From positions 2,948,501 to 3,012,500 of the forward strand of contig NZ_CP146343.1 of assembly GCF_037055275.1 (NCBI RefSeq): 64,000 nt of DNA, given 5' to 3'. Both the position numbers and the translations under genes were made by a program. The number at the start of each line of letters is the position of its first letter. The stretch's first letter is position 1. Shown here piece by piece: positions 31,604 to 62,508 of this stretch. The stretch is from Pseudomonas sp. ML2-2023-3 (GTDB lineage Bacteria; Pseudomonadota; Gammaproteobacteria; Pseudomonadales; Pseudomonadaceae). Below the pieces are notes generated by a model. The model saw only the letters and a list, made by a program, of their open reading frames with translations. It was not told where the DNA came from and did no database searches.

Positions 31604-32686
31604 ATGAGCTGCTGGCCCGATTCTCGCCTTATCGACTTGCTCGGCATCACCCATCCCATCATCCAGGCCCCCATGCTGGGCGCTGGCGCCGATATGATGA
31701 TCGGTGTCGCCAAGGCCGGTGGCCTGGGCTCTCTGGCCTGTGCCACGTTGAACCTTGAATCGATTCGCGCCGAAGTGGCGGCCTTTCGGGCCGAGAGCAA
31801 GCAGCCCCTGAACCTGAATTTTTTCTGCCATCAAGCCCCTGCTTACGATGAAGCCGCGATCGAGCACTGGAAGTCGTTGTTCAAGTCCTACTACACCGAG
31901 CTTGGGGCCGACTATGACGCGCCCACGCCCGTGTCGAGCCGCGCACCCTTTGACGAAGCCACCTGTGCCCTGGTCGAAGCGTTGCGCCCCGAAGTGGTGA
32001 GTTTTCACTTCGGTCTGCCTGCCCCGGAGCTGGTGGCCAGGGTCAAGGCCTGCGGAGCAAAAATCCTCAGTTCAGCCACCACGGTCGAAGAGGCCCGATG
32101 GCTGGAACGCCACGGCTGTGACGCGATCATCGCCATGGGCTACGAAGCTGGCGGGCATCGGGCAATGTTCTTGAGTCGTGAGCTGACCACCCAAATCGGT
32201 ACCTTTGCCCTGGTCCCGCAAATCGTCGATGCCGTGGACATACCGGTCATTGCCGCAGGCGGCATCGCCGATGCACGGGGTATTGCGGCGGCGTTTGCGC
32301 TGGGGGCCAGCGCCGTGCAAATCGGCACTGCCTACCTGTTTTGCCCGCAGGCAAAACTGGCCACACCCCATCACCGTGCCTTGCGCGAAGCCGACGCCAG
32401 TGACACCGCGCTCACCAACCTGTTTACCGGACGACCGGCCCGCGGCATCGTCAATCGTGTGATGCGCGAACTGGGCCCGATCAATACGCAGGCACCTGCC
32501 TTCCCGCTGGCGGGCGGTGTGTTATTACCGCTCAAGGCCAAATCCGACCCTGGCTGCGCAGACTTCATCAACCTGTGGGCGGGCCAGGGCTTCCCCTTGA
32601 GCCCCGGACGCACGGCCGAGCTGTCGTCCTATGAGCTGACCCGCACATTTGTCGATGACTATGCCGCCCGCTCCGCCGCTAAATAA
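31604..32686 (+). CDS. Nitronate monooxygenase (2-nitropropane dioxygenase family)
   Basis: 360 residues starting MSCWPDSRLIDLLG; a GTG four codons earlier is also possible. FMN-binding TIM-barrel with the class I motifs PIIQAPMLGAGADMMIGVAKAGGLGSL, MGYEAGGHRAMF (catalytic His) and AAGGIADARGIAAAFALGA. The enzyme oxidises toxic alkyl nitronates such as propionate 3-nitronate. It converges with the MFS gene, the two stop regions overlapping by 28 bp. IpdC of steroid pathways belongs to the same superfamily, but these motifs match genuine nitronate monooxygenase, so I do not assign it to the steroid set. Confidence 0.88.
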   Translation: MSCWPDSRLIDLLGITHPIIQAPMLGAGADMMIGVAKAGGLGSLACATLNLESIRAEVAAFRAESKQPLNLNFFCHQAPAYDEAAIEHWKSLFKSYYTELGADYDAPTPVSSRAPFDEATCALVEALRPEVVSFHFGLPAPELVARVKACGAKILSSATTVEEARWLERHGCDAIIAMGYEAGGHRAMFLSRELTTQIGTFALVPQIVDAVDIPVIAAGGIADARGIAAAFALGASAVQIGTAYLFCPQAKLATPHHRALREADASDTALTNLFTGRPARGIVNRVMRELGPINTQAPAFPLAGGVLLPLKAKSDPGCADFINLWAGQGFPLSPGRTAELSSYELTRTFVDDYAARSAAK

Positions 32687-33972
32687 TGGGTGTGTGCAGC
32701 ATGGGTGGAGGTGCGGATCAGCAACACGACCGCACCGGCTACCGGCAGACTCACCAGCAATAACGCGTAGCGCAGGGATTCAACGCCGAAGGCCGGTTGC
32801 AAGGCATCACTGAACAAGCCGGCCAGCAAAGGACCCACCCCAACCCCCAACAATGTGGAGATGATGGTCTGCAAGGCCATGGCCGTGCCTCGGCGGTTGG
32901 CCGGGACCAGTTGGGTGACCAGGTTGTATGACGGCGCCACCCACCACACCACAAAAAAACTGTACAGCGCGCACCACAGCATCGAGCTGGGGACAGGCAC
33001 GCTGCCCAGTTGCGTCCACACCGTGTCTGGCCACAGCAGATAGGCGAACAGCGCAGCCAGCGCGGCCACATTGCCGATCACCGGAATACCCACTTGCCAG
33101 TGCGGGTTGCGTGGCGTCAGGTGGTCGCTCAGCCAACCGCTGAATAACGCGCCGATCCCGGCAAAACCACCACAGATGAAACCTGCCAGCAGCCCTGCAT
33201 GTTGCAGTGACAACCCGTGGGAGCGCACCAGAAAACTGGTGTTCCACATGCCGATCGCATAGGAGCCCAGCGTGGTCAGGCCGCCCGCCATGACCAGGCA
33301 GCGGTAGGCGGGCAGGGCCCAGAGTTTGCGGGCCTCACTGCCCATGCTTTGCAGGGGATGGGCAGCATGGGCGCTGGCCAGGTCCCAACGGCCCCGGGCC
33401 GGGTCTTTTGCGATAAAGGCCAGCAGCGTGGAGAACAACAGCGCGGGCAAGCCGATCACGATGAATGCCGTGCGCCAGCCATACTGCTCGACCACCCATG
33501 CCCCCAGGCTCAGGCCGATGACGGCGGAAAAGGTCGGGGCGGCCGTGAAGCAACTGATGGCAAACGAGCGGCGATGTGGCGGGTACAAATCGGCAATGAT
33601 CGACATCGACGCCGAGGTGGTCGGCGACTCGCTCACGGCAACCGCCATGCGCGCCACGGCCAGCATCCAGAAACTGACCGCCAGGCCACAGATCATGGTC
33701 GCCACCGCCCATAACAGGCAGGCAATTGCCAGCAGGCGGGTACGGGACATGCGATCTGCCAGCCGCCCGGCAGGCAAGGCGAGGAGGGCGTAGATCCCGG
33801 CAAATGCCAGGCCCGAAATCAGCCCCATCGCCGTATCACTGACCCCGAACTCTGCCTTGATCGGTTCAATCATCACCGCCAGAATCTGACGGCCGACAAA
33901 ATTGTCGGCAAACATGGCCGCCAGCAACAACAGCAAAGCATGGCTGCGCCAGCCGACCTGAGCATTGGGCAT
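32659..33972 (-). CDS. MFS transporter
   Basis: 437 residues with about 12 hydrophobic segments. The ATG at 33972 has AGGAA 8 bases upstream (MPNAQVGWRSHAL). The loop 2-3 motif is GRLADRMSRTRLLAIA, and the N-terminal FADNFVGRQILAVMIEPIKAEF resembles the spinster-like/organic-acid MFS group. It is the last gene of the left arm of the first steroid-type divergent unit, after the aldolase. Uptake of a steroid acid or intermediate, or efflux, is possible; the substrate cannot be told from sequence. Confidence 0.88.
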   Translation of the reverse strand: MPNAQVGWRSHALLLLLAAMFADNFVGRQILAVMIEPIKAEFGVSDTAMGLISGLAFAGIYALLALPAGRLADRMSRTRLLAIACLLWAVATMICGLAVSFWMLAVARMAVAVSESPTTSASMSIIADLYPPHRRSFAISCFTAAPTFSAVIGLSLGAWVVEQYGWRTAFIVIGLPALLFSTLLAFIAKDPARGRWDLASAHAAHPLQSMGSEARKLWALPAYRCLVMAGGLTTLGSYAIGMWNTSFLVRSHGLSLQHAGLLAGFICGGFAGIGALFSGWLSDHLTPRNPHWQVGIPVIGNVAALAALFAYLLWPDTVWTQLGSVPVPSSMLWCALYSFFVVWWVAPSYNLVTQLVPANRRGTAMALQTIISTLLGVGVGPLLAGLFSDALQPAFGVESLRYALLLVSLPVAGAVVLLIRTSTHAAHTHYLAAERAA

Positions 33973-34002
33973 GGTTGAATTCCTGTCAGATGGAAACGCC
34001 AA

Positions 34003-34043: not shown

Positions 34044-35066
34044 TCAGGCCCGCAGGCGGGCCAGGGTCATGGCAGTGTCTTCGATCATGTCTTCCTGACC
34101 GCCGACCATGCCGCGACGTCCCATCTCGACGAGAATTTCCCGTGCCGGTACGCCGTATTTTTTCTCGGCGCGCTTGGCGAACAGCAGGAACGAGCCATAC
34201 ACCCCGGCATAGCCCATGGTCAGGGCATCACGATCGCTACGGATCGGGAAGTCCATGATCGGTACGACGAGATCCTCAGCCACATCTTGAATACCGAACA
34301 CGCTGACCCCGGTCTCAATGCCCATGCGGTCGCACACCGCCACTAGGATTTCCATCGGCGTATTACCCGCACCTGCGCCCAGCCCGGCTGCGGCGGCGTC
34401 GATGCGTGTGGCACCGGCTTCGATGGCAGCGATGGAGTTGGACACGCCCATGGACAGGTTGTGATGGCCGTGAAAGCCGATCTCGGTGTCCGGGTGCAGC
34501 GCCGCACGCAGGGCCTCGACCCGGGCCTTGATGTCGTGGGGCAGCATGTAACCGGCCGAGTCGGTGAGGTACACGCAGTTGGCGCCGAAGCTCTCCATCA
34601 GCTTGCCCTGCTTCACCAGGCCTTCGGGTGAGTTCATATGGGCCATCATCAGGAACCCCACAGTGTCCATGCCCAGCTTGCGTGCATAGGATATGTGCTG
34701 CTCAGACACGTCGGCCTCGGTGCAATGGGTCGCTACGCGGATTGTATTGACCCCCAGCTCATAAGCCATTTGCAGATGGTCCACGGTGCCGATACCGGGT
34801 AGCAGCAGAGCCGAAACCTTGGCCTGTTTCATCATCGGGATCACGGCCGACAGGTACTGCTCGTCGGTGTGCGCCGGGAACCCGTAGTTCACCGAGCTGC
34901 CGCCCAGGCCGTCGCCGTGGGTGACTTCAATCAGGGGCACACCGGCGGCGTCCAGGCCACAGGCGATGTCTTTCATCTGTTGCAGGCTGATCTGGTGACG
35001 CTTGGGGTGCATGCCGTCGCGCAGGCACATGTCATGCACGGTAATTTTTTTGCCGCGAAGATCCAT
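34044..35066 (-). CDS. 4-hydroxy-2-oxovalerate (oxohexanoate) aldolase
   Basis: 340 residues starting [20 protein letters not shown], with AAGGAG 8 bases upstream. DmpG/BphI/HsaF-type aldolase: metal and catalytic residues in [12 protein letters not shown], the [12 protein letters not shown] loop, and [13 protein letters not shown] (metal His pair), with a C-terminal communication domain. It splits 4-hydroxy-2-oxoacids to pyruvate and an aldehyde that is channelled to the partner dehydrogenase. The partner gene lies directly upstream (stop to start 10 bp), as in all meta-cleavage pathways. In steroid catabolism the same step (HsaF) yields pyruvate and propanal. Confidence 0.95.
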
Positions 35067-35076
35067 GGTCGACTCC

Positions 35077-36006
35077 TTAAGCGAGGGCAGGTTGAGGGGC
35101 GGATGCCTTGAGGTGCAGTTCACCCTTGAGGATTTCCTCGGCGAACATCTCTGCGGTGCGCGCAGCGGCGGCAGTCATGATGTCCAGGTTGCCGGCGTAC
35201 TTGGGCAGGTAGTCGCCCAGGCCTTCGACCTCCATGAAAATCGACACGCGGTTGCCATCAAACACCGGCCCGTTGACCAGCTTGTAACCCGGGACGTACT
35301 GCTGTACCTGCTCGATCATGTTGGCAATGGCCAGGCTGATCGCGGCTTGATCCGGTTCGGTTTCAGTCAGGCAGTGCACGGTGTCGCGCATGATCAGCGG
35401 CGGCTCGGCCGGGTTGACGATAATGATCGCCTTGCCTTTTTTGGCGCCGCCCACCTGTTCGATGGCACTGGCGGTGGTGCGGGTGAACTCGTCGATATTC
35501 TTGCGCGTGCCCGGGCCGACCGATTTGGACGCCGCCGTGGCAACGATCTCGGCATACGCCACCGGTTGCACGCTGCTGACGGCCGCCACCAGAGGAATGG
35601 TGGCCTGGCCGCCGCACGTGACCATATTGACGTTCATCGCGCCGCGCTTGAGGTTGGCCTTGAGGTTGACCGGGGGCACGCAGTACGGGCCGATGGCGGC
35701 GGGGGTCAAGTCAATCATCAGTACGCCCAGCTCATTGAGCTTGCGGCTGTTTTCGGCGTGAACGTAAGCCGACGTGGCATCGAAGGCAATCTGGATATTG
35801 TCGGCCAGCACATGGGGCAACAGCCCGTCGACCCCGTCACTGGTGGTCTTGAGGCCCATCTCGCGGGCACGGCTCAGGCCTTCGGAGGTGGCGTCGATGC
35901 CCACCATCCAGACCGGTTCCAGTACGTCACTGCGCAGCAACTTGTAGAGCAGGTCGGTGCCGATATTGCCCGGCCCGATCAGGGCACATTTGATCTTTTT
36001 GGTCAT
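35077..36006 (-). CDS. Acylating acetaldehyde/propanal dehydrogenase
   Basis: 309 residues. The NAD-binding N-terminus has [17 protein letters not shown], and the catalytic Cys lies in [14 protein letters not shown], both hallmarks of DmpF/BphJ/HsaG. It converts the aldehyde made by the aldolase to acetyl-CoA or propionyl-CoA in a channelled complex. It sits between the hydratase and aldolase genes with short gaps (21 and 10 bp). The trio is common to aromatic and steroid meta-cleavage pathways; assignment to steroid catabolism rests on its neighbours. Confidence 0.95.
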
Positions 36007-36027: not shown

Positions 36028-36819
36028 TTAGGGCACGAAGCGCAGGCGGGCTGAGCCCAGGCCGCTGAGGGTCAGGCTGACCTCATCGCCGGGTTGCACC
36101 GGCACCAGCGGCGCCAAGGCTCCGGAAAGGATGATTTCACCCTTGCGAAACGGGATGTCGAACTTGCCCAGGGTATTGGCCAGCCAGGCCACGGCGGCGC
36201 AGGGGTGGCCCTGTACTGCCGAGCCGAAACCGTTACCGGCTGGCTGTCCGTTTTTCAGCATGTGCAGTTCGACCTTGGCCAGGTCCAGTTCGCGGGGGTT
36301 GATACGTTGCTCACCCAAGGCGAACACGCCGCACGAAGCGTTGTCGGCCACCGTGTCCTGAATGCGGATTTTCCAGTCGGCGATACGCGAGTCGACAATC
36401 TCGAAACACGGCGCCACCCAAAGGCTGGCAGCCATGACGTCTTCAGCGGTAATGCCGGGGCCGTGCAGGTCTTCGCCGAGAATAAAAGCGATCTCGCCTT
36501 CGGCCCGTGGTTGCACCAACTGGTGGGCGGCGAAGCTCACATCGCTGTTGTCCGGGACCTGCATGGAATCGGTCAAGAAACCGAAATCGGGCTGATGCAC
36601 ATCCAGCATTTCCTGCACGGCACGGCTGGTGACGCCGATTTTCTTGCCAATCACCAGCTCGCCCAACGCCTGGCGGCGTTGCAAAAAGCGCAGGGAAATC
36701 CGGTACGCCATGTCCAGCGTCAAGTCCGGGTAACGCTGGGTCAGTGGCTGCAGGCTGCGGCGCTCGCGCAACGCATGAAACAGCTCATCGCCCAGGGCTT
36801 CAATCAACTGTGTGTCCAT
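36028..36819 (-). CDS. 2-hydroxypenta(hexa)-2,4-dienoate hydratase
   Basis: 263 residues starting MDTQLIEALGDELFHAL; the frame is open further upstream only through REP DNA. Fumarylacetoacetase-fold hydratase of the MhpD/DmpE/HsaE type: GKKIGVTSRAVQEML, PRAEGEIAFILGEDL (metal-binding Glu residues) and the C-terminal LSGALAPLVPVQPGDEV. It adds water to the dienoate released by ring-fission hydrolysis, giving the substrate for the downstream aldolase. A REP pair sits between it and the SDR gene. Confidence 0.94.
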   Translation of the reverse strand: MDTQLIEALGDELFHALRERRSLQPLTQRYPDLTLDMAYRISLRFLQRRQALGELVIGKKIGVTSRAVQEMLDVHQPDFGFLTDSMQVPDNSDVSFAAHQLVQPRAEGEIAFILGEDLHGPGITAEDVMAASLWVAPCFEIVDSRIADWKIRIQDTVADNASCGVFALGEQRINPRELDLAKVELHMLKNGQPAGNGFGSAVQGHPCAAVAWLANTLGKFDIPFRKGEIILSGALAPLVPVQPGDEVSLTLSGLGSARLRFVP

Positions 36820-36849
36820 AAATACGCTCTCTTGAAACTGAAAAACCCC

Positions 36850-36932
36850 TTGTGGGAGCGGGCTTGCTCGCGATGGAATCACTGCGCGCTGCCAGACAGA
36901 CCGCATCGCCTGTATCGCGAGCACGCTCCCAC
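36850..36932. repeat. REP inverted pair
   Basis: GTGGGAGCGGGCTTGCTCGC facing TCGCGAGCACGCTCCCAC with a 40-nt centre. It lies inside an operon, between the SDR and hydratase genes, where it may act as an mRNA stabilising hairpin. Confidence 0.85.
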
Positions 36933-36950
36933 CGTTGGTTGTGCCGTGAA

Positions 36951-37724
36951 CTAGCCCGGCCAGACACTCGACTCGGCCCCGCCGTCCACTTCCAGGATCT
37001 TGCCGGTGACCCATCGTGAAGCCGGGGAGGCCAGGTACAGCGCCGCTGCCGCGATGTCTTCAACCTCGCCCAGGCTTTGCAGCGGGGTGGCTTTGATCAT
37101 GCCTTCGCGCATGGCAACCGGCAGGACACGGTTCAAGGCGTCGGTCAGTACCGGGCCGGGGGCAATCCCGTTGACCCGCACCAGTGGGGCGAAATCCTGG
37201 GCCAGCAAACGGGTCATGTGGCTGAGCGCAGCCTTGGCGGTGCCATAGGCGCTGAATTGGGTTTGGGCATAGCGCGCCGCGCCCGAGGTGATATTGATGA
37301 TGTTGCCGCTGCCCGCGTCGCGCATGTGCGGCACGCACAGCTGGCTCAGGTGATAGGCCGAGGACACGTTGAAACGCATGATTTCTTCGAAGCGCTCGAC
37401 ACTCAGGGTCAGCGGATCGTTGGGGCCTGCGCCGCCTGCGTTGTTCACCAGATGGGTGATACGGCCCATGTGCTCCCGGGCCTGGGTGACCACCGCGCTG
37501 CGCTGCTCGGCGTCAGTCACGTCGCAGCTCAGGGCCAGGGCGCGGCGTCCCAGGCGGCGAACTTCTTCGGCCACCGCTTCAACGTCGCTCAAGGTACGGG
37601 CTGCCAGTACCACATCGGCGCCTGCCTCGGCGCAGGCCAGGGCGATACCGCGGCCAATGCCGCGCCCGCCGCCGGTGATGACGGCCACGCTGCCGGTCAG
37701 GTTGAAGCGCTGAATAATGTTCAT
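36951..37724 (-). CDS. Short-chain dehydrogenase, 7alpha-hydroxysteroid dehydrogenase-like
   Basis: 257 residues starting MNIIQRFNLTGSVAVITGGG. Classical SDR: cofactor motif TGGGRGIGRG, NNAGG, catalytic Ser in NIINITSGAA, and Tyr/Lys in FSAYGTAKAA. Several stretches recall E. coli HdhA: NNAGGAGP, YHLSQLCVPHM, and RVNGIAPGPVLTDAL...PLQSLGEVEDIAAAALYLASPASRWVTG split over the C-terminal third. Oxidation of a ring hydroxyl of a bile-acid-like steroid is therefore a reasonable guess. Other SDRs share parts of this pattern, so substrate assignment is moderate. It is co-transcribed with the flavin reductase gene. Confidence 0.8.
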   Translation of the reverse strand: MNIIQRFNLTGSVAVITGGGRGIGRGIALACAEAGADVVLAARTLSDVEAVAEEVRRLGRRALALSCDVTDAEQRSAVVTQAREHMGRITHLVNNAGGAGPNDPLTLSVERFEEIMRFNVSSAYHLSQLCVPHMRDAGSGNIINITSGAARYAQTQFSAYGTAKAALSHMTRLLAQDFAPLVRVNGIAPGPVLTDALNRVLPVAMREGMIKATPLQSLGEVEDIAAAALYLASPASRWVTGKILEVDGGAESSVWPG

Positions 37725-37749
37725 AAAGGGTCCGGTTCCTTCAAGGGGA

Positions 37750-38730
37750 TTAGCGGGGCGCCCACAGATCGGGCAAGCCGGGATCACTGGCCGTAATCAG
37801 GCGCTTGAGCAGCACTTTAAGGGCCTGGGCATCGCCGGGAGCGAGCCTGGCCGACACGTTTTCCTCCACGGCCTTGGCCAGTGCCACCTGTTGCAGCGAC
37901 GCCTCACGGCCCGTGGCGGTCAGCACATAGCGCGGTGCCTGCTGGCTGCCTTCGAGGGCGACCAGGTTCTGTTTTTCGAGAAAACGCATGCTTGCCACAG
38001 ACACCACATGCCCGGTGTAACTGACGAAGTGATTGATTTCATCCAGGGTCAGGTTGTCGCGAATACACAGGACCGAAAGGATAAAGAAAGCATGCTCGTC
38101 CAGCTGCTGATTGCTCAGCAGGCGGTGCAGGGCGTCGAGCAACTGGTAATGGGCGCGGCCCAGCAGGTACCCGAGCAAGTCCTCGGTGTAGCTGCACTCC
38201 GGTGGTGGCGGAGTGGTTGCCAGGCGCAGCTCGCTGCGTGGTTTACGGGTTGCCAGGGCATATTGGCCGCTTTGAAAGGCCAGCGGTGCGCGGTCGCTGT
38301 GATCGAAGGCGAGCACTTCACCGACAAAAATCACATGGTCGCCGCCTTCATATTGAAAGGCCGTGCGGCACTGAAACCTGGCGGTGCAGTCCTGTAACAG
38401 CGGTGCTTCGCTAATGCCGTTGTCGAGTTCGATTTCGGCAAACTTGTTCTCGCCCTGCATCGCAAAACGTCCGGACAGAGGTTCCTGTTCGGTCGACAGC
38501 ACATGCACGTTCCAGTGCTTTCCGGAACTGAACACCGGCAGGCTGCGAGCGGACTTGGCCAGACTCCACAGCACCAGCGGCGGGTTAAGCGACACCGAGT
38601 TGAAACTATTGGCAGTAATGCCGATGGGCGAGCCATCTTCAGCCTGGGTGGTGATGATCGTCACCCCGGTGGTAAAGGTGCCCAGCGCGGTACGGAATGC
38701 CTGCGGGTCGAAACTGCTTTGCATTGCCAT
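37750..38730 (-). CDS. Flavin reductase with C-terminal MarR-like domain (HsaB/C1-HpaH type)
   Basis: About 326 residues starting MAMQSSFDPQAFR. The N-terminal flavin-reductase domain (about 5-160) has FRTALGTFTTGVTIITT, GITANSFNSVSLNPPLVLWS and GDHVIFVGEVLAF. The C-terminal part (about 185-320) is a MarR-like helical/winged domain (LDEINHFVSYTGHVVSVASMRFLEKQNLV). This architecture is known from the reductase (C1) of two-component p-hydroxyphenylacetate hydroxylase in Acinetobacter, where the tail is regulatory. Here it would supply reduced flavin to the HsaA-like hydroxylase at 42215. It is first in the left arm of the divergent unit. Confidence 0.9.
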   Translation of the reverse strand: MAMQSSFDPQAFRTALGTFTTGVTIITTQAEDGSPIGITANSFNSVSLNPPLVLWSLAKSARSLPVFSSGKHWNVHVLSTEQEPLSGRFAMQGENKFAEIELDNGISEAPLLQDCTARFQCRTAFQYEGGDHVIFVGEVLAFDHSDRAPLAFQSGQYALATRKPRSELRLATTPPPPECSYTEDLLGYLLGRAHYQLLDALHRLLSNQQLDEHAFFILSVLCIRDNLTLDEINHFVSYTGHVVSVASMRFLEKQNLVALEGSQQAPRYVLTATGREASLQQVALAKAVEENVSARLAPGDAQALKVLLKRLITASDPGLPDLWAPR

Positions 38731-38791
38731 GACGAACCTCATGGATTGGATTTTCGTGCTGGCAGTATTCGCCCCGAAGCGGTGCGCTACA

Positions 38792-40340: not shown

Positions 40341-40351
40341 AACACGCAGTG

Positions 40352-40435
40352 CAGGAGCGGGGTTGCTCGCGATGCTGTCGACCCGGCGCCTTCATGGGCC
40401 GCATTGATGCAATCGCGAGCAAGCCCGCTCCCACA
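40352..40435. repeat. REP inverted pair
   Basis: CAGGAGCGGGGTTGCTCGCG facing TCGCGAGCAAGCCCGCTCCC plus ACA. Located between the aldehyde dehydrogenase and amidase genes. Confidence 0.85.
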
Positions 40436-40462
40436 GGACCCTGGCGCCTAAAACAACACGAA

Positions 40463-51843: not shown

Positions 51844-51896
51844 CGACCTTCAGCGGCGACCACCGGGTTGCTGCACTTGACACGCAGGAGACGAAC

Positions 51897-54429: not shown

Positions 54430-55608
54430 ATGACGCAATCGACACTTTCCGGCAGCGCTGCCATCGTTGGCCTGGGCGCGACCGAATTTTCGAAAAACTC
54501 CGGGCGCACCGAATTGCGCCTGGCGCTTGAAGCCACGTTGGCTGCGTTGAAAGACGCGGGTATCGACCCGTCCGAGGTTGAGGGTTTCAGCTCGTACTCG
54601 GTGGACAAAGTCCCGGAATACGAGATCGCCCGCTTGCTGGGTTGCAAGGACGTCAAATTCTTCTCCCAGGTACCCCACGGTGGTGGTGCGGCCTGCGCGC
54701 CGATCATGCACGCGGCCATGGCCGTCGCCACAGGTGTGGCCAAAGTGGTGGTGGTCTACCGCGCCATGAACGAGCGCTCGTGGTATCGCTTCGGCAGCGG
54801 CAGCTACGGCTTTGCTTCCACGCCGATCTTCGAAAACGTCAACTACGGCTGGTACATGCCCCACGGCCTGCACACCCCGGCTTCATGGGTCGGCATGTTT
54901 GCCCAGCGCTACATGCACACCTACGGCGCCACCTCTGAAGACTTCGGTCGCGTGGCGGTGGCGGTGCGTGACTTTGCCGCCACCAACCCGGCGGCGTTCT
55001 TTTACGGCAAGCCGATCACTCTGGAAGAACACCAGGCCTCGCGCTGGATCTGCGAGCCGTTGCATTTGCTCGATTGCTGCCAGGAATCCGATGGTGCGGT
55101 GGCGATGGTGATTACCTCGGCCGAGCGTGCCAAGGACCTGCGCCAGAAGCCGGTGATGATCAAGGCCGGCTCCCAGGGGATCACGTCGGGCCAGCAGATC
55201 ATGACCTCCTTCTACCGCGACGACATTACCGGGCTACCGGAAATGGGCGTGGTCGCCAAGGAGCTGTATCGCCAGTCGGGCCTGGGCCCGGAGGCGCTGC
55301 AAACCGCGGTCATCTACGACCACTTCACCCCGTTTGTACTGCCGCAGCTCGAAGAGTTCGGCCTGTGCGAGCGTGGCGAAGCCAAGGAATTCATCCGAGC
55401 CGGGCACCATGCCCGTGGCGGCAAGTTCCCGATCAATACCCACGGCGGGCAACTGGGCGAGGCTTATATCCACGGCATGAACGGCGTGGCTGAAGCGGTG
55501 CGCCAGGTGCGTGGCAGTGCGGTCAACCAGGTCGACAATGTGGAAAACGTGCTGGTGACTGCTGGCACGGGTGTTCCTACCAGCGGCCTGATTCTGGGAG
55601 CAGCCTGA
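54430..55608 (+). CDS. Thiolase-fold aldolase, Ltp2-like
   Basis: 392 residues. Thiolase-like lipid-transfer protein (SCPx-type) fold with SGSAAIVGLGATEFSKNSGRT at the N-terminus, HGGGAACAPIMHAAMAV, and VIYDHFTPFVLPQLEEFGLC; the Tyr in the latter is equivalent to a catalytic Tyr in Ltp2. In the steroid pathway Ltp2 with ChsH2 performs retro-aldol cleavage of the hydroxylated side chain, releasing propanoyl-CoA or acetyl-CoA and a 17-ketosteroid. It has GGAG 12 bases upstream and adjoins ChsH1- and ChsE2-like genes. Confidence 0.85.
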   Translation: MTQSTLSGSAAIVGLGATEFSKNSGRTELRLALEATLAALKDAGIDPSEVEGFSSYSVDKVPEYEIARLLGCKDVKFFSQVPHGGGAACAPIMHAAMAVATGVAKVVVVYRAMNERSWYRFGSGSYGFASTPIFENVNYGWYMPHGLHTPASWVGMFAQRYMHTYGATSEDFGRVAVAVRDFAATNPAAFFYGKPITLEEHQASRWICEPLHLLDCCQESDGAVAMVITSAERAKDLRQKPVMIKAGSQGITSGQQIMTSFYRDDITGLPEMGVVAKELYRQSGLGPEALQTAVIYDHFTPFVLPQLEEFGLCERGEAKEFIRAGHHARGGKFPINTHGGQLGEAYIHGMNGVAEAVRQVRGSAVNQVDNVENVLVTAGTGVPTSGLILGAA

Positions 55609-56778
55609 ATGTTCGTCGACCTCACGCCTGAACAACACGCCCTGCGCCTGAAGGTGCGGGACTACTTCCAAAACCTGATGACCCCGCAGTTGCGTGAGCA
55701 ATTGCGTGGCAAAGAGGGCGGCGAACTGTACCGCGACACCATCCGCCAGATGGGGCGCGACGGCTGGCTGGCCGTGGGCTGGCCCAAGGAGCACGGCGGG
55801 CAGGGCTACGGCCCCACCGAGCAGTTCATCTTCTTTGAAGAAGCGAACATTGCCGGGGCGCCGCTGCCGTTTGTGACCATCAGCACTGTTGGGCCTGCGC
55901 TGATGGCTCACGGCACCGAATTGCAAAAGGCCAAATTCTTGCCGGGCATCGCTGCGGGCGAAATCATCTTTGCCATCGGCTACTCCGAACAGGATGCGGG
56001 CAGCGACCTGGCGGTGCTCAAAACCACGGCCCGCCTTGAAGGCGACAGTTTTGTGGTCAATGGCAACAAGCTCTGGACCTCGGGTGCCGAGTCGGCGGAT
56101 TACATCTGGCTGGCGGCGCGTACCGATCCAGAACGACCACGGCACAAGGGCGTGTCGATCCTGATTCTCGACACCCAGGCGCAAGGCTTCTCGACCACGG
56201 TGATCCCGACCACGAGCAACCCGACTGCGGCTACCTACTACGATAACGTCCGGGTGCCCCAAGACATGCTGGTGGGCGAGCTGAACGGTGGCTGGAAGCT
56301 GATCACCGCCCAACTGAACCACGAGCGGCTGGGCCTGGGTGCCTGGTCGGACAAGGTTGTCGGGCTGTTTCGCCGGGTGCTGATGTGGGCCAGGGAAACG
56401 GATGAAAACGGCGTGCGTGCCACCGATAAAGCCTGGGTGCGCGCAGGTCTGGCGCAGTGTTACGCAAGGCTGGAAGCCATGCGCCTGATCAACCTGCGCA
56501 TTGCCGCTGATCTTGAGCGTGAGCGCATGGACGTGGCGCTGGCCTCGACCACCAAGGTCTACGGCTCCGAATCGGCGATCGAGATTCTGCGCCTGTTGAG
56601 CAACATCGTAGGTGCCAATGGTCTGGTGCGCGGCGGTTCGGCGGCGTCGTTGTTGCAGGGCGACCTGGAGTACGAAGTACGTGCCAGCGTGACCCTGACG
56701 TTTGGTGGCGGCACCAATGAAATCCAGCGCGAGCTGATAGCCCAATTCGGCCTGGGCATGCCCCGTACCCAGCGTTAA
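55609..56778 (+). CDS. Acyl-CoA dehydrogenase, ChsE2 (FadE29)-like subunit
   Basis: 389 residues, equal to FadE29. MFVDLTPEQHALRLKVRDYF, QMGRDGWLAVGWPKEHGGQG, IIFAIGYSEQDAGSDLAVL and DYIWLAARTDPE all recall FadE29 from memory. The middle domain has the FAD-stacking residues and the C-terminus has LTFGGGTNEIQREL. It would form the ChsE1-ChsE2 complex with the protein at 52887, oxidising the C3 (propionyl-CoA) steroid side chain. The start immediately follows the Ltp2-like stop. Confidence 0.88.
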   Translation: MFVDLTPEQHALRLKVRDYFQNLMTPQLREQLRGKEGGELYRDTIRQMGRDGWLAVGWPKEHGGQGYGPTEQFIFFEEANIAGAPLPFVTISTVGPALMAHGTELQKAKFLPGIAAGEIIFAIGYSEQDAGSDLAVLKTTARLEGDSFVVNGNKLWTSGAESADYIWLAARTDPERPRHKGVSILILDTQAQGFSTTVIPTTSNPTAATYYDNVRVPQDMLVGELNGGWKLITAQLNHERLGLGAWSDKVVGLFRRVLMWARETDENGVRATDKAWVRAGLAQCYARLEAMRLINLRIAADLERERMDVALASTTKVYGSESAIEILRLLSNIVGANGLVRGGSAASLLQGDLEYEVRASVTLTFGGGTNEIQRELIAQFGLGMPRTQR

Positions 56779-56784
56779 TAGAGG

Positions 56785-56963: not shown

Positions 56964-58154
56964 ATGAACACCATTGACCAGTTCAGAGAGCAAACCCGCA
57001 GCTGGCTTGAGGCCAACTGTCCACCCTCCCAGCGCAAGGCGATTCCTGAAGGCGAGTTGGTATGGGGTGCAAGGGATGTCGAGTTCCCCAATGCCGATGC
57101 CCAGCTGTGGTTTGAGCGCATGCGCGACAAGGGCTGGTTCTGCCCGGACTGGCCTGCCGAATATGGCGGTGCAGGGCTGAGCGCGGAATATAACGCCGTG
57201 CTCGAAAGTGAGCTGCGCCGCCTGAAGTGCCGCCCGCCACAAATCAATCTGGGCATCTGGATGCTTGGCCCGGTGCTGCTGGAGTTCGGCAGCGAAGCGC
57301 AAAAGAAAGACCTGCTCACCCCGATGACTCGCGGTGAAGTGCGCTGGTGCCAGGGCTTCTCCGAGCCCAATGCCGGCTCTGACCTGGCGAGCCTGAAAAC
57401 CGCCGCCCGGGATGCTGGCGATCATTTTGTAGTTGATGGCAGCAAAATCTGGACCTCGTACGGAGACAAGTCGGACTGGATGTATGCGTTGGTCCGCACC
57501 AATCCCGCCGCCAGCAAGCACGCGGGCATCAGCCTGATCGTGCTCGACATGAAAAGCCCCGGGGTGAGCGTTGCGCCGATTGATTTGATCAGCGGCAAAT
57601 CTGCGTTCTGCCAGGTGTTCTTCGATGCAGTCAAAGTCCCGAAAAGCCAGCTGATTGGCCCGTTGCACGGCGGCTGGAACTTGGCCAAGCGCCTGTTGCA
57701 GCACGAACGCAAAGCCATGTCCAAATTCGGCGAGTTCAGCCTGCCGACGCACTTTCACTTGTTGTCGTTGGTCGGCCAGTACTTGCCCGAACCTGCGGGG
57801 CAAAGCGAATCGGCGCTGGTGGCGCGGGCTGTGGCCTGTGCCATGGACGAGCACAGCTACAACCTGACCGTACAGCGCATGGGTGAAGAAGCCCGCGCCG
57901 GGCAAGACGTCAGTGGGCTGATGTCGATCATGAAACTGGTCCACACCGAACAGGAACGGGACAAGTTCGAAGTGCTGTTGGATGTCATGGGTTATCACGC
58001 ATTGGGCTGGGACAAGGAGGCGTTCAGCCCCCAGGAGCAGGCCATCACCCGTGGCTGGCTCAACAGCTTCGCCCTGACCATTTCTGGCGGTGCCTCAGAA
58101 ATCCAGCTCAACGTGATTGCCAAGCGGGTCCTCGGCCTGCCTGATGTGAAGTAA
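56964..58154 (+). CDS. Acyl-CoA dehydrogenase (FadE26/FadE34-like family, subunit A)
   Basis: 396 residues. Complete ACAD: DKGWFCPDWPAEYGGAGLS, RWCQGFSEPNAGSDLASLKTAARDAGD, KIWTSYGDKSDWMYALVRT and the C-terminal SGGASEIQLNVIAKRVLGLP. It is followed by a second ACAD gene 11 bp downstream; such pairs form alpha2beta2 steroid acyl-CoA dehydrogenases. Role could be an earlier side-chain cycle (C5 chain) or HIP-CoA ring oxidation. Start has AGGTGAAATAAC upstream, weak ribosome site. Confidence 0.88.
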   Translation: MNTIDQFREQTRSWLEANCPPSQRKAIPEGELVWGARDVEFPNADAQLWFERMRDKGWFCPDWPAEYGGAGLSAEYNAVLESELRRLKCRPPQINLGIWMLGPVLLEFGSEAQKKDLLTPMTRGEVRWCQGFSEPNAGSDLASLKTAARDAGDHFVVDGSKIWTSYGDKSDWMYALVRTNPAASKHAGISLIVLDMKSPGVSVAPIDLISGKSAFCQVFFDAVKVPKSQLIGPLHGGWNLAKRLLQHERKAMSKFGEFSLPTHFHLLSLVGQYLPEPAGQSESALVARAVACAMDEHSYNLTVQRMGEEARAGQDVSGLMSIMKLVHTEQERDKFEVLLDVMGYHALGWDKEAFSPQEQAITRGWLNSFALTISGGASEIQLNVIAKRVLGLPDVK

Positions 58155-58165: not shown

Positions 58166-59311
58166 ATGAACCTGCTTTATAACGATGATCAACGGATGTT
58201 GGCCGACAGCGCCCGCGAGTTCCTGGCGGCGCGCAGCCCGGTGTCCCGCCAGCGCGCCTTGCGCGATGAGCCCCAGCCCGATGGTTTTGACTCGCGACTG
58301 TGGCAAGACGCAGTGGCGTTGGGCTGGAGCGCTATACCGTTCCCCGAAAACCTCGGCGGGCTGGACTTCGGTTGCATGGGCCTGGGCCCTGTCTTTGAAT
58401 CCATCGGTTGCACGCTCAGCGCCTCGCCGCTGCTCTCCAGCGTAGTGCTCAGCGGTTCCTTGCTGCACCTGCAGGGCAATGCCGAGCAACAGGATTGCTG
58501 GCTGTCGACGACCATCAGCGGTGAGCGGCGCTTGGCGCTGGCGCTGGACGAAAACGCGCGTCACAACCCGCAAAAGGTCTCGTTGCAAGCCGTGCCCAAT
58601 GGCGATGGCTACAGCCTGACCGGGGATAAATATTGTGTGATCGACGGGCTCGGTGCCGACGGTTATCTGGTGGCAGCACGCACGGGCACCCAGGGTATCA
58701 GCCTGTTTCTGATACCGGCCGACGCTGCGGGCCTCACTGTGGTTGCGTTACCGCTGATTGACTCGCGCAACCATGCACGGTTGCAGCTGGATCAGGTACA
58801 GGTCGGGCCGCAAGCACTGCTCGGCGAGGCCGGATCTGCCATGCCTGCGTTGATTATTGCGCTGGATCGCGGTCGAGTGTGCCTGGCTGCCGAGATGCTC
58901 GGCATGTCTGAAAAACTCTTCGCGATGACCCTCGATTACCTCAAGACCCGCGTCCAGTTTGATGTGGCCATTGGCTCTTTCCAGACCCTGCAACACCGTG
59001 CGGCGCAGCTGTATGTCGACCTGGCACTGGCGCGCAGCGCGGTGATGGCCGGGCTGGCAGCGCTGGACGATACACGCCTGAGCGAGGTCGAGCGTCAGCG
59101 CCTGGCCAGTCTGGCGAAGTGGAAGGCCGGGCAGACGGCGATCAAGGTCGCGAATGAAGCGGTGCAGATGCACGGCGGCATTGGCGTCACCGATGAGCTG
59201 GATGTGGGCTTGTACCTCAAGCGTATCCGGGTGGCTCAGGCAACCCTGGGCGATGCCGATTTTCACTGCGAGCGCTATGGCGCCCTGGAACTGGCGCACG
59301 CGCACGCTTGA
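58166..59311 (+). CDS. Acyl-CoA dehydrogenase (subunit B of pair)
   Basis: 381 residues starting MNLLYNDDQRMLADSAREFL, with AAGGAAACCCACC upstream. ACAD fold with GWSAIPFPENLGGLDFGCMG and the C-terminal MHGGIGVTDELDVGLYLKRIRV. The middle domain is less conserved, which is common for the beta subunits of paired steroid ACADs. Probably forms a heteromer with the protein at 56964. Confidence 0.88.
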   Translation: MNLLYNDDQRMLADSAREFLAARSPVSRQRALRDEPQPDGFDSRLWQDAVALGWSAIPFPENLGGLDFGCMGLGPVFESIGCTLSASPLLSSVVLSGSLLHLQGNAEQQDCWLSTTISGERRLALALDENARHNPQKVSLQAVPNGDGYSLTGDKYCVIDGLGADGYLVAARTGTQGISLFLIPADAAGLTVVALPLIDSRNHARLQLDQVQVGPQALLGEAGSAMPALIIALDRGRVCLAAEMLGMSEKLFAMTLDYLKTRVQFDVAIGSFQTLQHRAAQLYVDLALARSAVMAGLAALDDTRLSEVERQRLASLAKWKAGQTAIKVANEAVQMHGGIGVTDELDVGLYLKRIRVAQATLGDADFHCERYGALELAHAHA

Positions 59312-59348: not shown

Positions 59349-61037
59349 ATGAAACTTGAGCAATGGCAGAGCGCCTGGCAGCAGTTGGTGGGGGTGGGCT
59401 CGCCTTTTGAAGTCGTCACGCCGCCAGAAGGCGGGCCGAAGTATTTTCGACACACAGCAGCCAGCGTCTGGGCCGCCATCGACAGTGGCCGGGTGCATGC
59501 TGACCGCGAGTTTCTGGTGTGGGAGCAGCAGCGACTGACGTTCAGTCAGTTTTTCGATCAGGTGGATCGACTGGCCGGGCAGTTGGTGCAGCGCTTTGGT
59601 CTGCACAAAGGCGATCGCGTCGCGATTGCCATGCGTAATCAGCCCTCCTGGCTGGTCGCGTTTGCAGCCATCCAGCGATGCGGTGCGGTGTGTGTGCCGC
59701 TCAACAGCTGGGGGCTGCGTGACGAGCTGTTTCATGGCCTGCAGGACAGCGGTGCGTGCTTGTTGCTGTGCGACGAGCCTCGCTTGCAATTGCTTGCCGC
59801 TGACCTGCGTGATCAAGGGCTGGCAACCATTGTGGTTGGCCTGCGTGAAGACGCGCCGCTGGAGGAACACTGCCAGCGCCTGGAAGACCTGCTGGCTGCA
59901 CCCGCGTTGAGTACGCCCGTGCAACCCGTCAGTGCCAGCGACCCGGCCATGATTCTCTACACCTCGGGCACGACCAGTCTGGCCAAGGGCGTGCTGTCGA
60001 CCCACGGCGCAGTCTGTCAGGCGCTGGTGGCGCTGGAGTTCCAGGGTGCGTTTTGCGCGCTCAGTTCACCGCAGCGCATCAGTGTGGTGATTAACAGCGG
60101 TTATGCGCCCACCACCTTGATGGCAGTCCCGCTGTTCCATGTCAGTGGCTTGCATGCGCAGTTTTTGCTGGCCTTGCGCAGCGGTCGACGCCTGCTGCTG
60201 ATGTACAAGTGGGACGTGGAAAAAGCCTTCGATCTGATCCGCGATGAGCACTGCACCCAGTTCAACGGCGCACCGGTGATGATGCAGCAACTGCTGACGT
60301 CGCCACGCTTTGGCAGCCCTGACACGGCCAGCCTGTTTGGTCTGGGGCTGGGGGGTGCGGCACCGTCCAGCAGCCTGCTGGAACACCTGACCCAGCGCAA
60401 ACCCGAGGCAATCGGCGGCAGTGGTTATGGGCTGACCGAAAGCAACGGCATCTGCGCAGCCATTGGCGGTGATCAGTTTGTCTACAAACCAGCGTCTGCA
60501 GGCTGGCCCTTGCCAATTGTCGAGGTGCGCATCGGCGACAGTCCGGATCGACCACTGCCCGTCGGTGTCAGTGGATTGATCTGGGTGCGCTCGCCAACGC
60601 TGATGAGCGCGTACTGGAACCTGCCCGAGGCCAGCGCACAGACCCTGCGCGATGGCTGGCTCGACACCGGCGATATCGGGCTGCTGGATGATGAAGGTTT
60701 CCTCTACATCACGGATCGCGCGAAGGATTTGATCAATCGCGGCGGCGAGAAGATTTCCGCTGCCGAGGTCGAGTCCTGCGCCTGTGAGATGCCCGGTGTG
60801 ATTGAAGCCGCAGCCTTTGCCGTCCCTGACGATGTGCTGGGCGAAGTGGTGTTTTTGGTGGTGCGTGGCGACCCGGCCTCAACCCCGGACCGGGATACGG
60901 TGCGGGGGTTTATCGCCCAGCGTCTGGCGAGCTTCAAGGTCCCTGCGCAGATCCATATCCAGCACACGCCGTTTGCCCGTAATGCGTCGGGCAAGATGCT
61001 TAAAAGCTTGCTCAAAGAGCTGTTGGTAACGGCCTGA
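59349..61037 (+). CDS. Acyl-CoA synthetase (steroid/fatty acid type)
   Basis: 562 residues starting MKLEQWQSAWQQLVGVG, with GGAG upstream. ANL ligase: P-loop MILYTSGTTSLAKGV, SGYGLTESNG, GWLDTGDIG, and catalytic Lys in NASGKMLKSLL. The Thr-Ser stretch differs slightly from FadD3-type ligase at 48049, implying a different substrate, for example the steroid side-chain acid. Follows the ACAD pair and precedes the DUF1329 gene. Confidence 0.9.
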   Translation: MKLEQWQSAWQQLVGVGSPFEVVTPPEGGPKYFRHTAASVWAAIDSGRVHADREFLVWEQQRLTFSQFFDQVDRLAGQLVQRFGLHKGDRVAIAMRNQPSWLVAFAAIQRCGAVCVPLNSWGLRDELFHGLQDSGACLLLCDEPRLQLLAADLRDQGLATIVVGLREDAPLEEHCQRLEDLLAAPALSTPVQPVSASDPAMILYTSGTTSLAKGVLSTHGAVCQALVALEFQGAFCALSSPQRISVVINSGYAPTTLMAVPLFHVSGLHAQFLLALRSGRRLLLMYKWDVEKAFDLIRDEHCTQFNGAPVMMQQLLTSPRFGSPDTASLFGLGLGGAAPSSSLLEHLTQRKPEAIGGSGYGLTESNGICAAIGGDQFVYKPASAGWPLPIVEVRIGDSPDRPLPVGVSGLIWVRSPTLMSAYWNLPEASAQTLRDGWLDTGDIGLLDDEGFLYITDRAKDLINRGGEKISAAEVESCACEMPGVIEAAAFAVPDDVLGEVVFLVVRGDPASTPDRDTVRGFIAQRLASFKVPAQIHIQHTPFARNASGKMLKSLLKELLVTA

Positions 61038-61125
61038 ATAGTCTTTGTGGACGATGTACTCGCCTGTGAATGGCGAAGAATGGACGCATACCCCTCAGCA
61101 AGCTTATTCGCGTAGGAGGCAATAC

Positions 61126-62508
61126 ATGAAAATAACAAGAACAGGCGTAATGCTCGCAGCCGCCATAGCCGTCAATGTGGCGGCCATCGGCACGGCATCC
61201 GCCCAGGTATCTCCCGCAGAAGCGGCCAAACTGGGTAAAGAGCTGACCTGTGTAGGTGCAGAACAGGCAGGTAACGCCGCGGGCACTATCCCGCCCTACA
61301 CCGGCAAGTACCTGGGCGAAGTTCCGGGCTGGAACCATGTGAAGTTCTCGGGCGACCAACCGGTTGATCCCTACGCTGCAGAGAAGCCGATCCTGGTGAT
61401 CACTGCGCAAAACATGGCGCAGTACGAAGACAAGCTGACCGAGGGCCAGAAAGCGCTGCTCAAGCGTTATCCGACCACTTACAAGATGAACATCTACACC
61501 GGTCATCGTGATTTCCGCTACCCGGACTACGTGTGCCGCCGCGTCATGAGCAACGCCTTGAATGCCAAGCTGGTGAACGATGGCATGGGCATCGAAGGGT
61601 TGGGCCAGGTGCCGTTCCCGATCCCTAAAAGCGGCATGGAAGTGCTGTGGAACCACCAGCTCCCGGCGCGCGCCTGGACCGAAGAAAAAACCAGTGACCT
61701 GGCGTCCGTACTGCCCAATGGCAGCATTGGGTGGGGCCGTGCCTATGCGCGAGGCCTGTCACAGGCCAACTCCCCGACGGTGGAGCCAAAAACTGAAGAC
61801 AAGATTCAGGCAATGGGCAACAACACGACGCTCAAACCTGCCCGTGACAACGGCGTGATCAGCATTTCCCACGAACCCTACGACTTTCAGACCAACCCGC
61901 GTCAGGCCTGGAGCTACAGCCCGTCCACCCGTCGCGTTCGCTTGCTGCCTGGCTACGGCTATGACCAGCCGATGATTGGCACCAACGGCACCATGACCGT
62001 CGACGAAGACCGTTTGTTCAACGGTTCGCCAGAGCGCTTCGACTGGAAATTGATCGGCAAGCGTGAGGTTTACATCCCGGCCAACGCCTACAAGCCCAAC
62101 GCAGGCACGGTGAAGTACGCAGACATGCTCACGCCCAACCATCCCAACCCTGACCTGATGCGTTATGAACTGCGTCGTGTGTGGGTGCTGGAAGGGGACC
62201 TGAAAGAAGGCTATCGCCACGTGTACGGCAAGCGTGTGCTGTTTATCGATGAGGACACCTGGAACTCGGTGATGGCAGACAACTACGATGCCCGTGGGCA
62301 GCTGTGGAAACACGCCATGATCAACTACTACTACCATCCGGACATGAGCGCCTGGCAGGCGGGTTCGCAGTTCTTCATGGACTTGAACTCGGGGCAGTAC
62401 ACCGGCTACGGCATGACCAACGAAGCCAAGAAAGGCCCGATCCTCAACGAAGGCAAGTTCACGCCTGACCAGTACACCGCGGATGCGGCACGGGCGATGG
62501 GACGGTAA
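61126..62508 (+). CDS. DUF1329 exported protein
   Basis: 460 residues starting MKITRTGVMLAAAIAVN, with AGGAGG 5 bases upstream and a Sec signal peptide cleaved near ASAQVSP. DUF1329 proteins of this length are found with hydrophobic-compound degradation genes (aromatic, steroid and PHA contexts), usually next to a DUF1302 outer-membrane protein. Function is unknown; cell-envelope role in uptake of a hydrophobic substrate is suspected. No DUF1302 partner is encoded here. It closes the second unit and is followed by a strong terminator. Confidence 0.88.
   Translation: MKITRTGVMLAAAIAVNVAAIGTASAQVSPAEAAKLGKELTCVGAEQAGNAAGTIPPYTGKYLGEVPGWNHVKFSGDQPVDPYAAEKPILVITAQNMAQYEDKLTEGQKALLKRYPTTYKMNIYTGHRDFRYPDYVCRRVMSNALNAKLVNDGMGIEGLGQVPFPIPKSGMEVLWNHQLPARAWTEEKTSDLASVLPNGSIGWGRAYARGLSQANSPTVEPKTEDKIQAMGNNTTLKPARDNGVISISHEPYDFQTNPRQAWSYSPSTRRVRLLPGYGYDQPMIGTNGTMTVDEDRLFNGSPERFDWKLIGKREVYIPANAYKPNAGTVKYADMLTPNHPNPDLMRYELRRVWVLEGDLKEGYRHVYGKRVLFIDEDTWNSVMADNYDARGQLWKHAMINYYYHPDMSAWQAGSQFFMDLNSGQYTGYGMTNEAKKGPILNEGKFTPDQYTADAARAMGR

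Follow-up and report, generated by a model that had tools for sequence, protein, structure and literature searches.

Which substrate does a bacterium degrade when one stretch of its chromosome encodes half of a steroid pathway, and where is the other half? This question is raised by a 64,000-nt stretch of DNA from Pseudomonas sp. ML2-2023-3 (GCF_037055275.1, NZ_CP146343.1 positions 2,948,501-3,012,500), here called the window and written C1:2948501-3012500 within a genome of 5.41 Mb on four contigs. In it, 24 contiguous catabolic or transport open reading frames (ORFs) fill window positions 32659-62508 (C1:2981159-3011008). We conclude, with a probability of about 0.87, that this cluster is the A/B-ring and side-chain part of a bile-acid pathway like that of Pseudomonas Chol1, an aerobic 9,10-seco route predicted to be complete and distributed over four loci. 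The strain would then probably be able to use bile salts for growth. Pathways of this kind are already known; the P. fragi/psychrophila group would be a new place for one, with a four-locus layout. By itself, the window could not support the whole pathway, a point missing from a preliminary description made from the letters of this DNA, and a window that carries half of a pathway may wrongly be taken for an incomplete one.

A steroid gene cluster in Chol1-like order

Protein families were called with NCBIfam models and their curated cut-offs, Pfam domains and the sequences of the nearest solved structures (Table 1). The gene types listed in the preliminary description are all encoded, namely HsaA, HsaB, HsaE, HsaF, HsaG, KstD, KshB, FadD3, ChsE1, ChsE2, ChsH1, ChsH2 and Ltp2, together with an additional pair of acyl-CoA dehydrogenases (ACADs), a ligase, a crotonase and two short-chain dehydrogenases/reductases (SDRs); KstD2, an aldehyde dehydrogenase, an amidase, a DUF1329 protein and a major facilitator superfamily (MFS) transporter can be added. 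FadD3, Ltp2, KstD2, SDR2, the crotonase, HsaF and HsaG reach their NCBIfam cut-offs.

When HsaA, KstD, Ltp2 and ChsH2 were compared with solved structures, a check proposed at the outset, steroid enzymes were nearest in every case. For the HsaA-like protein, the best chain is 2rfq ('3-HSA hydroxylase, oxygenase', 281.1 bits), followed by 3afe ('Hydroxylase, putative'), which we take to be HsaA of M. tuberculosis, and the HsaA model scores 373.7 vs 226.9 for that of p-hydroxyphenylacetate hydroxylase (HPAH). After 7p18 (3-oxosteroid 1-dehydrogenase), the next chain for KstD1, at 302.8 bits, is likewise a 3-ketosteroid dehydrogenase; Tyr, Tyr, Tyr and Gly are kept where KstD1 aligns with the active-site residues of Rhodococcus KstD1, if the numbering of that chain is offset by 20 residues, as we presume. 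KstD2 is closest to 4at0, a 3-ketosteroid delta4-5alpha-dehydrogenase (193.4 bits), Ltp2 matches 6ok1 with 545.8 bits (next solved chain 171), and the ChsH2-like protein matches the solved ChsH2(DUF35) with 130.9 and the hydratase ChsH2 with 105.4 bits. Generic aromatic degradation was rejected as an explanation, since HsaA, KstD, Ltp2, ChsH2 and a KshA encoded elsewhere all match steroid enzymes best. Among plasmids, the best 20 of 47 matching records match hsaF and hsaG only (query 1398-3352).

Other assignments lean on gene position. No cut-off was reached by the aldehyde dehydrogenase among its 25 best models listed, and its Sad (steroid aldehyde dehydrogenase) assignment follows its place in Chol1, as does that of the amidase, which occupies the place of the Chol1 bile-salt amidase and whose leader was judged by eye. 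The ferredoxin reductase is a candidate KshB by position and by the presence of KshA in the genome. In the HsaE-like ORF, the TIGR03220 match spans residues 71-326; HsaE and SDR1 are found together in 43 of 53 named related loci. A homologue of the MFS transporter (43%) adjoins an HsaD-like gene at 3.068 Mb. DUF1302 proteins, presumably the usual partners of the DUF1329 protein, are encoded at 3.08 Mb and, as judged by eye, at 2.82 Mb.

Gene order was compared with the published gene table of Pseudomonas stutzeri Chol1 (C211_RS10975-RS11300), not with its DNA. In the excerpt used (PMC8399759 Table 1), the tags run HsaG, HsaF, HsaE, HsaB, Sad, amidase, HsaA, KstD, KshB and StdA3, then Scd3A, Scd3B, hydratase, Shy2, Scd2B, second hydratase, Sal2 and Scd2A, and finally delta4-5alpha-ketosteroid dehydrogenase (KSTD), Scd1A, Scd1B and StdA1. 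In the window we find HsaF, HsaG, HsaE, SDR1, HsaB, aldehyde dehydrogenase, amidase, HsaA, KstD1, KstD2, KshB and FadD3, and after these crotonase, SDR2, ChsH2, ChsE2, ChsH1, Ltp2, ACAD1, ACAD2, ACAD3 and the CasG-like ligase. Gene types and most of the assigned order are thus common to both, from HsaB to StdA1 and, at another locus here, from TesD to IpdC. The order of HsaF and HsaG differs from the Chol1 tags, as do the genes between FadD3 and Shy2, and the place of RS11110 (delta4-5alpha-KSTD) is empty, with 185 bp between the ACAD genes; the delta4-type enzyme instead adjoins kstD1. According to the same excerpt, Chol1 has a single cluster, as opposed to four separate chromosomal loci here.

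Comamonas testosteroni TA441 also shares the tes, scd, ste and chs gene types, although in one 120-kb cluster, unlike the four loci here. As far as the excerpted text of PMC13101464 goes, its scdB (an SDR, C9-hydrogenase) and scdH (a crotonase, 7alpha-dehydratase) adjoin chsE1E2H1H2ltp2. A crotonase and an SDR stand likewise beside the chsE/chsH/ltp2 genes of the window, and by position these are candidates for ScdH and ScdB, respectively.

Bile acids as the probable substrate

The aldolases point to the substrate. In part of PMC12329534, Tyr294, within a YDHF motif, and Tyr344 are given as catalytic in the C3 aldolase TcLtp2, while the bile-acid C5 aldolase CtSal carries YDCY and has Gln352 in place of Tyr344. 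The genome encodes both motifs, those of the CtSal/CtShy (C5) and TcLtp2/ChsH2 (C3) aldolase complexes: in the window, YDHF stands at residue 296 of the aldolase, which keeps both catalytic tyrosines in the alignment to 6ok1, and an aldolase at 3.08 Mb has YDCY at residue 301. Gln351 of the latter lies 50 residues past the motif, as Gln352 does from Tyr302 in CtSal, a placement by spacing only; in the pairwise alignment of the two aldolases, Ser354 and not Gln351 stands opposite the second tyrosine. The next gene after the 3.08-Mb aldolase encodes a Shy-like, DUF35-type protein, the C-terminal half of which we read as MaoC-like.

Further genes fit this picture. The amidase and a block of SDR, SnoaL-type and old yellow enzyme (OYE) genes at 3.06-3.09 Mb match the Chol1 places of the bile-salt amidase and of the genes for 12-hydroxyl handling, and the block follows the Chol1 order in the tabulated excerpt. 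Judged from these sequences, a narrowing of the substrate class to bile acids, among bile acids, sterols and terpenoids, is supported.

Candidates for the remaining steps at other loci

None of the cluster ORFs of the window encodes HsaC, HsaD, KshA or IpdAB, for which all genome-search matches lie elsewhere, and C/D-ring genes were not found in the window either. Candidates for the steps absent from it lie at three other loci, at 2.82, 3.06-3.09 and 3.83 Mb (Table 1), and an incomplete pathway lacking KshA, HsaC and C/D-ring genes was accordingly rejected.

KshA (C1:3827681-3828715) was singled out from seven Rieske-domain matches in the genome: three KshA structure sequences match it with 328-350 bits (best 349.8) vs 82.6 for the best non-KshA. 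One SDR of the same 3.83-Mb locus resembles 3alpha-hydroxysteroid dehydrogenase (3alpha-HSD). The HsaC-like dioxygenase at 3.08 Mb scores 285.7 with the HsaC model, above the 266.1 of biphenyl-diol dioxygenase (both under cut-off), and its best structure is 2zi8 (233.6 bits), titled BphC, which we take to be HsaC of M. tuberculosis. Candidates for IpdAB, IpdC and C/D-ring beta-oxidation were assigned from family-level matches and position, with the IpdE2 models under cut-off. In Chol1 terms, the 3.06-3.09 Mb locus would comprise TesD, SteA, SteB, Hsh1, Sor1, StdA2, Sal1, Shy1, HsaC, IpdA, IpdB and IpdC, names given by family and position, with the MFS gene and others interspersed. A further difference from Chol1 is that two ACAD pairs of C/D-ring type lie at 2.83 Mb.

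Table 1. Genes and related features of the window cluster (window positions) and of the other loci (positions on the contig, C1). Numbers in the last column are bits, compared with the cut-off of the model where one is given.
Feature	Position	Strand	Basis
MFS transporter, candidate steroid uptake	32659..34002	-	NCBIfam MFS models only, under cut-offs
HsaF-like 4-hydroxy-2-oxovalerate aldolase	34044..35123	-	TIGR03217 558.6 > 286
HsaG-like acylating acetaldehyde dehydrogenase	35077..36006	-	TIGR03215 471.4 > 282.25
HsaE-like 2-hydroxypenta-2,4-dienoate hydratase	36028..37014	-	TIGR03220 370.9 < 408.8
SDR1, hydroxysteroid-dehydrogenase-like	36951..37787	-	NF005873 305 < 346
HsaB-like flavin reductase, C-terminal extension	37750..38742	-	PF01613, residues 21-162 of 330
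Aldehyde dehydrogenase, Sad position in Chol1	38904..40340	+	Aldehyde dehydrogenase family
Amidase, twin-arginine-like leader	40349..42046	+	Best amidase model 355.8 < 418
HsaA-like seco-steroid 4-hydroxylase, oxygenase subunit	42125..43402	+	HsaA model 373.7 < 450
KstD1, 3-ketosteroid delta1-dehydrogenase	43462..45207	+	7p18 727, residues 9-568 of 581
KstD2, delta4-dehydrogenase-type flavoprotein	45204..46964	+	NF005511 723.9 > 466
Deletion scar of SDR gene	46961..46996	+	First and last codons match ends of SDR gene of L003
KshB-type ferredoxin reductase	46998..48029	+	FAD_binding_6, NAD_binding_1, Fer2 domains
FadD3/StdA3-type CoA ligase	48049..49635	+	NF005801 (FadD3) 717.8 > 657, scanned from 48010
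Crotonase, positional ScdH (7alpha-dehydratase) candidate	50141..50926	-	NF006007 413.9 > 355
SDR2, positional ScdB (C9-hydrogenase) candidate	51070..51843	+	NF005893 391.3 > 255, scanned from 50914
ChsH2/Shy2-like, MaoC-type domain fused to DUF35	51855..52874	+	PF01796, PF12172, PF13452
ChsE2/Scd2B-like ACAD	52887..54020	+	ACAD; best IpdE2 82.6 < 450; position
ChsH1-like MaoC hydratase	53992..54411	+	PF01575 26.1, slightly < gathering 27; HadB-type models under cut-off
Ltp2/Sal2 aldolase, C3 side chain	54430..55608	+	NF005892 682.5 > 469
ChsE1/Scd2A-like ACAD	55609..56778	+	pimC-type 183.6, under cut-off; position
Scd1A-like ACAD	56964..58154	+	pimC-type 232.8, under cut-off; position
Scd1B-like ACAD	58166..59311	+	pimD-type 222.2, under cut-off; position
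StdA1/CasG-like steroid-24-oyl-CoA ligase	59349..61037	+	Best model CasG 356.8 < 750; position
DUF1329 envelope protein	61126..62508	+	PF07044 391, scanned from 61045
2.82-Mb locus, C/D-ring set: MMPL, DUF1329, DUF1302, two ACAD pairs, crotonase, two thiolases, two SDRs, MaoC	C1:2822131-2839509		MMPL, DUF and MaoC labels by eye from translations
3.06-3.09 Mb locus, first part: CoA-transferase pair, FadH-type OYE, HsaD-like hydrolase, MFS, two SDRs, SnoaL-type, OYE, ligase	C1:3062457-3088000		Family scans, some genes by eye only
3.06-3.09 Mb locus, rest: DUF1302, YDCY aldolase, DUF35-type, HsaC-like, IpdA-like, IpdB-position, crotonase, NMO-type (IpdC-like), SDR	C1:3062457-3088000		Family scans, some genes by eye only
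3.83-Mb locus: AraC regulator, MFS, KshA, two SDRs, LuxR-type regulator, MMPL	C1:3825379-3836000		

Proposed route

The route we propose is reconstructed from the genes, their families and order, their co-occurrence in the genus and the signature residues of the aldolases, so that every substrate and step in it is a prediction. The amidase would free conjugated bile salts, and the 3-hydroxyl and ring A would be oxidised by the 3alpha-HSD-like SDR (3.83 Mb), KstD2 and KstD1. The C5 side chain may be activated by CasG/StdA1 and desaturated by Scd1AB, whereupon Sal and Shy (3.08 Mb) would hydrate and cleave it to acetyl-CoA and an aldehyde that the Sad-type enzyme could oxidise. The C3 remnant, presumably activated by the ligase at 3.07 Mb, would be desaturated, hydrated and cleaved to propionyl-CoA by ChsE1E2, ChsH1H2 and Ltp2. 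Ring B would be opened by KshA (3.83 Mb) with KshB, and after hydroxylation by HsaAB, ring A would be cleaved by HsaC (3.08 Mb). An HsaD-type hydrolase could then yield methylhexahydroindanedione propionate (HIP) and a dienoate, the latter to be consumed by HsaEFG. Beta-oxidation of the C/D rings might be begun by FadD3, SDR2 and the crotonase and completed by enzymes from the 2.82- and 3.08-Mb loci.

Occurrence in the genus

We searched 398 genomes of the genus, 385 of them with a completeness of 90% or more and a contamination of 5% or less, scoring only the 3-5 best candidates per genome. Ltp2 was matched in 38 genomes (E 1e-60), KshA in 68, HsaC in 68 and KstD1 in 67 (E 1e-120). The matches fall into a close and a diverged class, split at a gap in identity (KshA 71-100 vs 45-55%, HsaC 68-100 vs 48-62%, KstD1 69-100 vs 43-56%). 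The close class comprises 40 genomes for KshA, 40 for HsaC and 39 for KstD1, the diverged class 28 for each, counted by genome name and excluding two weak second matches (40-43%) of one genome (G151; G and L numbers denote genomes and loci of our searches). All 38 genomes with Ltp2 carry close-class KstD1, HsaC and KshA, so that genes lying on separate loci here are co-inherited, the behaviour expected of components of a single pathway; the 38 genomes are related and do not represent 38 independent events. Exceptions are G285, which has KshA, HsaC and KstD1 without Ltp2, G316 with KshA only (78% complete) and G223 with HsaC only (73% complete). The close-class set of Ltp2, KstD1, HsaC and KshA in 38 of 398 genomes agrees with the initial expectation that most Pseudomonas lack these genes.

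A scan for related loci gave 53, of which 46 have Pseudomonas in the title, the closest named ones (HsaA 87-96%) belonging to P. psychrophila, P. fragi, P. bubulae, P. saxonica, P. helleri, P. paraversuta and P. lundensis. In P. psychrophila DSM 17535, 14 genes of the locus show 86-99% identity, up to a contig end that precedes the side-chain block. KstD1 or KstD2 lies near HsaA in 23 of these loci; another 28, for example L022, have HsaA, KshB and FadD3 with no KstD match in the fetched stretch, mostly together with HsaFGE and SDR1. L022, the one of them scanned, also has a DUF1302 and a LuxR-type gene. In the 10 kb fetched, ChsH2 or Ltp2 is seen at only four loci (L003, L011, L012 and L052), so a side-chain block directly after fadD3 is not the rule among relatives. 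The window has its SDR2-to-DUF1329 block flanked by a crotonase and a glyoxalase gene; in L004 (Pseudomonas sp. NKUCC02_KPG), no such block separates these two genes. An HsaA with 89% identity to that of the window is also encoded on L010, a contig of 3 kb under the title Mycobacterium sp. MBM, and is probably contamination.

On this prediction, a well-studied bile-acid route reaches into the P. fragi/psychrophila group, where almost all of its steps have candidate genes. Among the open-licence literature matches listed, no report deals with steroid or bile-acid degradation in P. fragi, P. psychrophila or P. lundensis. In the excerpt of PMC11446756, P. psychrophila is mentioned for sulfamethoxazole, with no bile or cholate, and 'fragi' does not occur in the excerpt of PMC5790920; Pseudomonas is among the predicted steroid degraders in the excerpt of PMC4810484, which counts KshA and HsaC as key enzymes.

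Points against the assignment and alternative explanations

Several observations weigh against a complete bile-acid pathway. Within the window, HsaA, HsaB, HsaE, KstD1, the KshB-type reductase and the CasG-like ligase miss their NCBIfam cut-offs: KstD1 scores 576.8 < 788, the reductase has PaaE as its best model (254.3 < 420.8), and the HsaB-like protein scores higher with the HPAH reductase model (214.8 < 340) than with HsaB (130.4 < 230). These shortfalls may reflect divergence from the models, which the scans do not prove. An SDR gene present in 17 fetched loci (54-100% identity to the copy of L003) has been deleted at 46961-46996; in the printed maps of relatives it sits directly before kshB, and L004, L008, L011 and L012 likewise lack it there, with differing remnants. 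At the other loci, NCBIfam gave no KshA model for the KshA candidate, only 4beta-methylsterol monooxygenase (61.5 < 600), and the HsaC-like dioxygenase stays below the 450 of its best model. HsaD has two candidates under a cut-off of 400, of which the one in the steroid locus (185.1 bits) is weaker than that at 3.94 Mb (266.6 bits), which adjoins HsaE and HsaG homologues of another locus. The protein in the IpdB position has no NCBIfam match at E 1e-10. The Cys3His1 zinc finger reported for Shy (PMC12329534, in part) is absent from the Shy-like protein, where C-x2-C-x10-C-x2-C was read by eye. Finally, the genes are spread over four loci and form no single cluster.

Of the alternatives, the use of C19 steroids such as testosterone, with the side-chain genes as accessories, survives best, although we regard it as improbable. 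A ring-only gene set seems to exist in the genus, as the diverged KshA, HsaC and KstD1 occur in the same 28 of 398 genomes and Ltp2 in none of them (E 1e-60). This genome, however, encodes a CasG-type ligase, paired ACADs and two distinct aldolases, each with its DUF35 partner, besides a Sad-position aldehyde dehydrogenase, an amidase and genes of 12-hydroxyl type, none of which testosterone should call for. It is more improbable still that the pathway is decayed or partial and would take bile salts only as far as androstadienedione-like end products. The dispersal over four loci, the SDR deletion and the uncertain HsaD and IpdB would fit such decay, but the reading frames are open, the genome keeps candidates for KshA, HsaC and the C/D-ring steps, and matches to KshA, HsaC and KstD1 persist in all 38 genomes with Ltp2, even though KshA of G385 (C1:1770918-1771932) gives two separate, overlapping matches that look like the result of a frameshift.

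The weakest alternative is a pathway for sterols (cholesterol or phytosterol), which could appeal to the names ChsE, ChsH and Ltp2, taken from cholesterol catabolism, but which we hardly credit, because the YDCY aldolase is of the bile-acid C5 type and no cytochrome P450, of the CYP125/CYP142 kind or any other, was found (the genome has 0 matches to PF00067, a search to which 7 of 14 control genomes respond), so that the genome lacks the hydroxylation by which aerobic sterol side-chain degradation usually proceeds, an argument limited to P450-dependent routes since P450-free proteobacterial ones were not searched for. Where the preliminary description had allowed bile acids, sterols or a related terpenoid, a steroid pathway is supported and bile acids are favoured.

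Dispersal of the gene cluster

The 50 kb between the window cluster and the locus at 3.06-3.09 Mb hold ordinary genes, by resemblance gacA/uvrY, uvrC and pgsA among them, and we therefore read the split as a rearrangement. Other genera are known to have steroid pathways spread over several loci (PMC8399759, in part), so a split as such is not new. Eleven genomes with an Ltp2 at least 96% identical form what we call the fragi-type group. KshA is on the Ltp2 contig in six of them, at 825, 748, 706, 326, 261 and 39 kb; among the other 27 Ltp2 genomes, both are on one contig in 18, at 6-90 kb. HsaC and Ltp2 lie 24-25 kb apart in four fragi-type genomes, 78 kb apart here and 152 and 621 kb apart in two, and on different contigs in the remaining 4 of 11. 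Splits also occur beyond this group: the distance between KstD1 and Ltp2 is 1320 kb in G245 and 352 kb in G385.

A palindromic repeat family, here with 37-nt perfect arms, occurs in the window at 49963-50130, 31355-31505 and 56783-56940. It has 159 genome matches at no fewer than 40 distinct sites, 27 of the 40 counted lying between 2.7 and 3.96 Mb (a count from 68 rows of the 159 matches, with mirror and half-length rows mostly dropped). Each of the four steroid loci has a copy within it or no more than 1.5 kb away, a distance chosen after seeing the data; such proximity arose by chance in 2 of 5000 sets of uniform sites and 25 of 5000 of rotated sites, but in 141 of 5000 when the loci were shifted between 2.7 and 4.0 Mb.

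We tentatively propose, at somewhat less than even odds, that in the P. fragi/psychrophila group the ancestral pseudomonad cluster, once contiguous, was broken by repeat-mediated rearrangement into unlinked modules, four of them here, that must be co-regulated from a distance, with the whole pathway kept, and that these psychrotrophs of meat and milk are unrecognised mineralisers of bile salts. The split layout offers a natural test of co-regulation once a pathway that usually forms a single cluster is scattered.

Other features of the window

REP-like sequences (GTGGGAGCGGGCTTGCTCGCGATG and its complement) occur in the cluster at 36851-36933, 40351-40441, 42051-42093 and 46854-46946, partly in ORF ends. 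An Rfam scan gave tRNA only. Window positions 1-19500 have 50-59% G+C in 2-kb steps vs 58-64% in the rest; they contain an integrase, transposases, a histidine kinase and two TonB receptors, end near tRNA-Gln (19422-19496) and are likely a mobile island.

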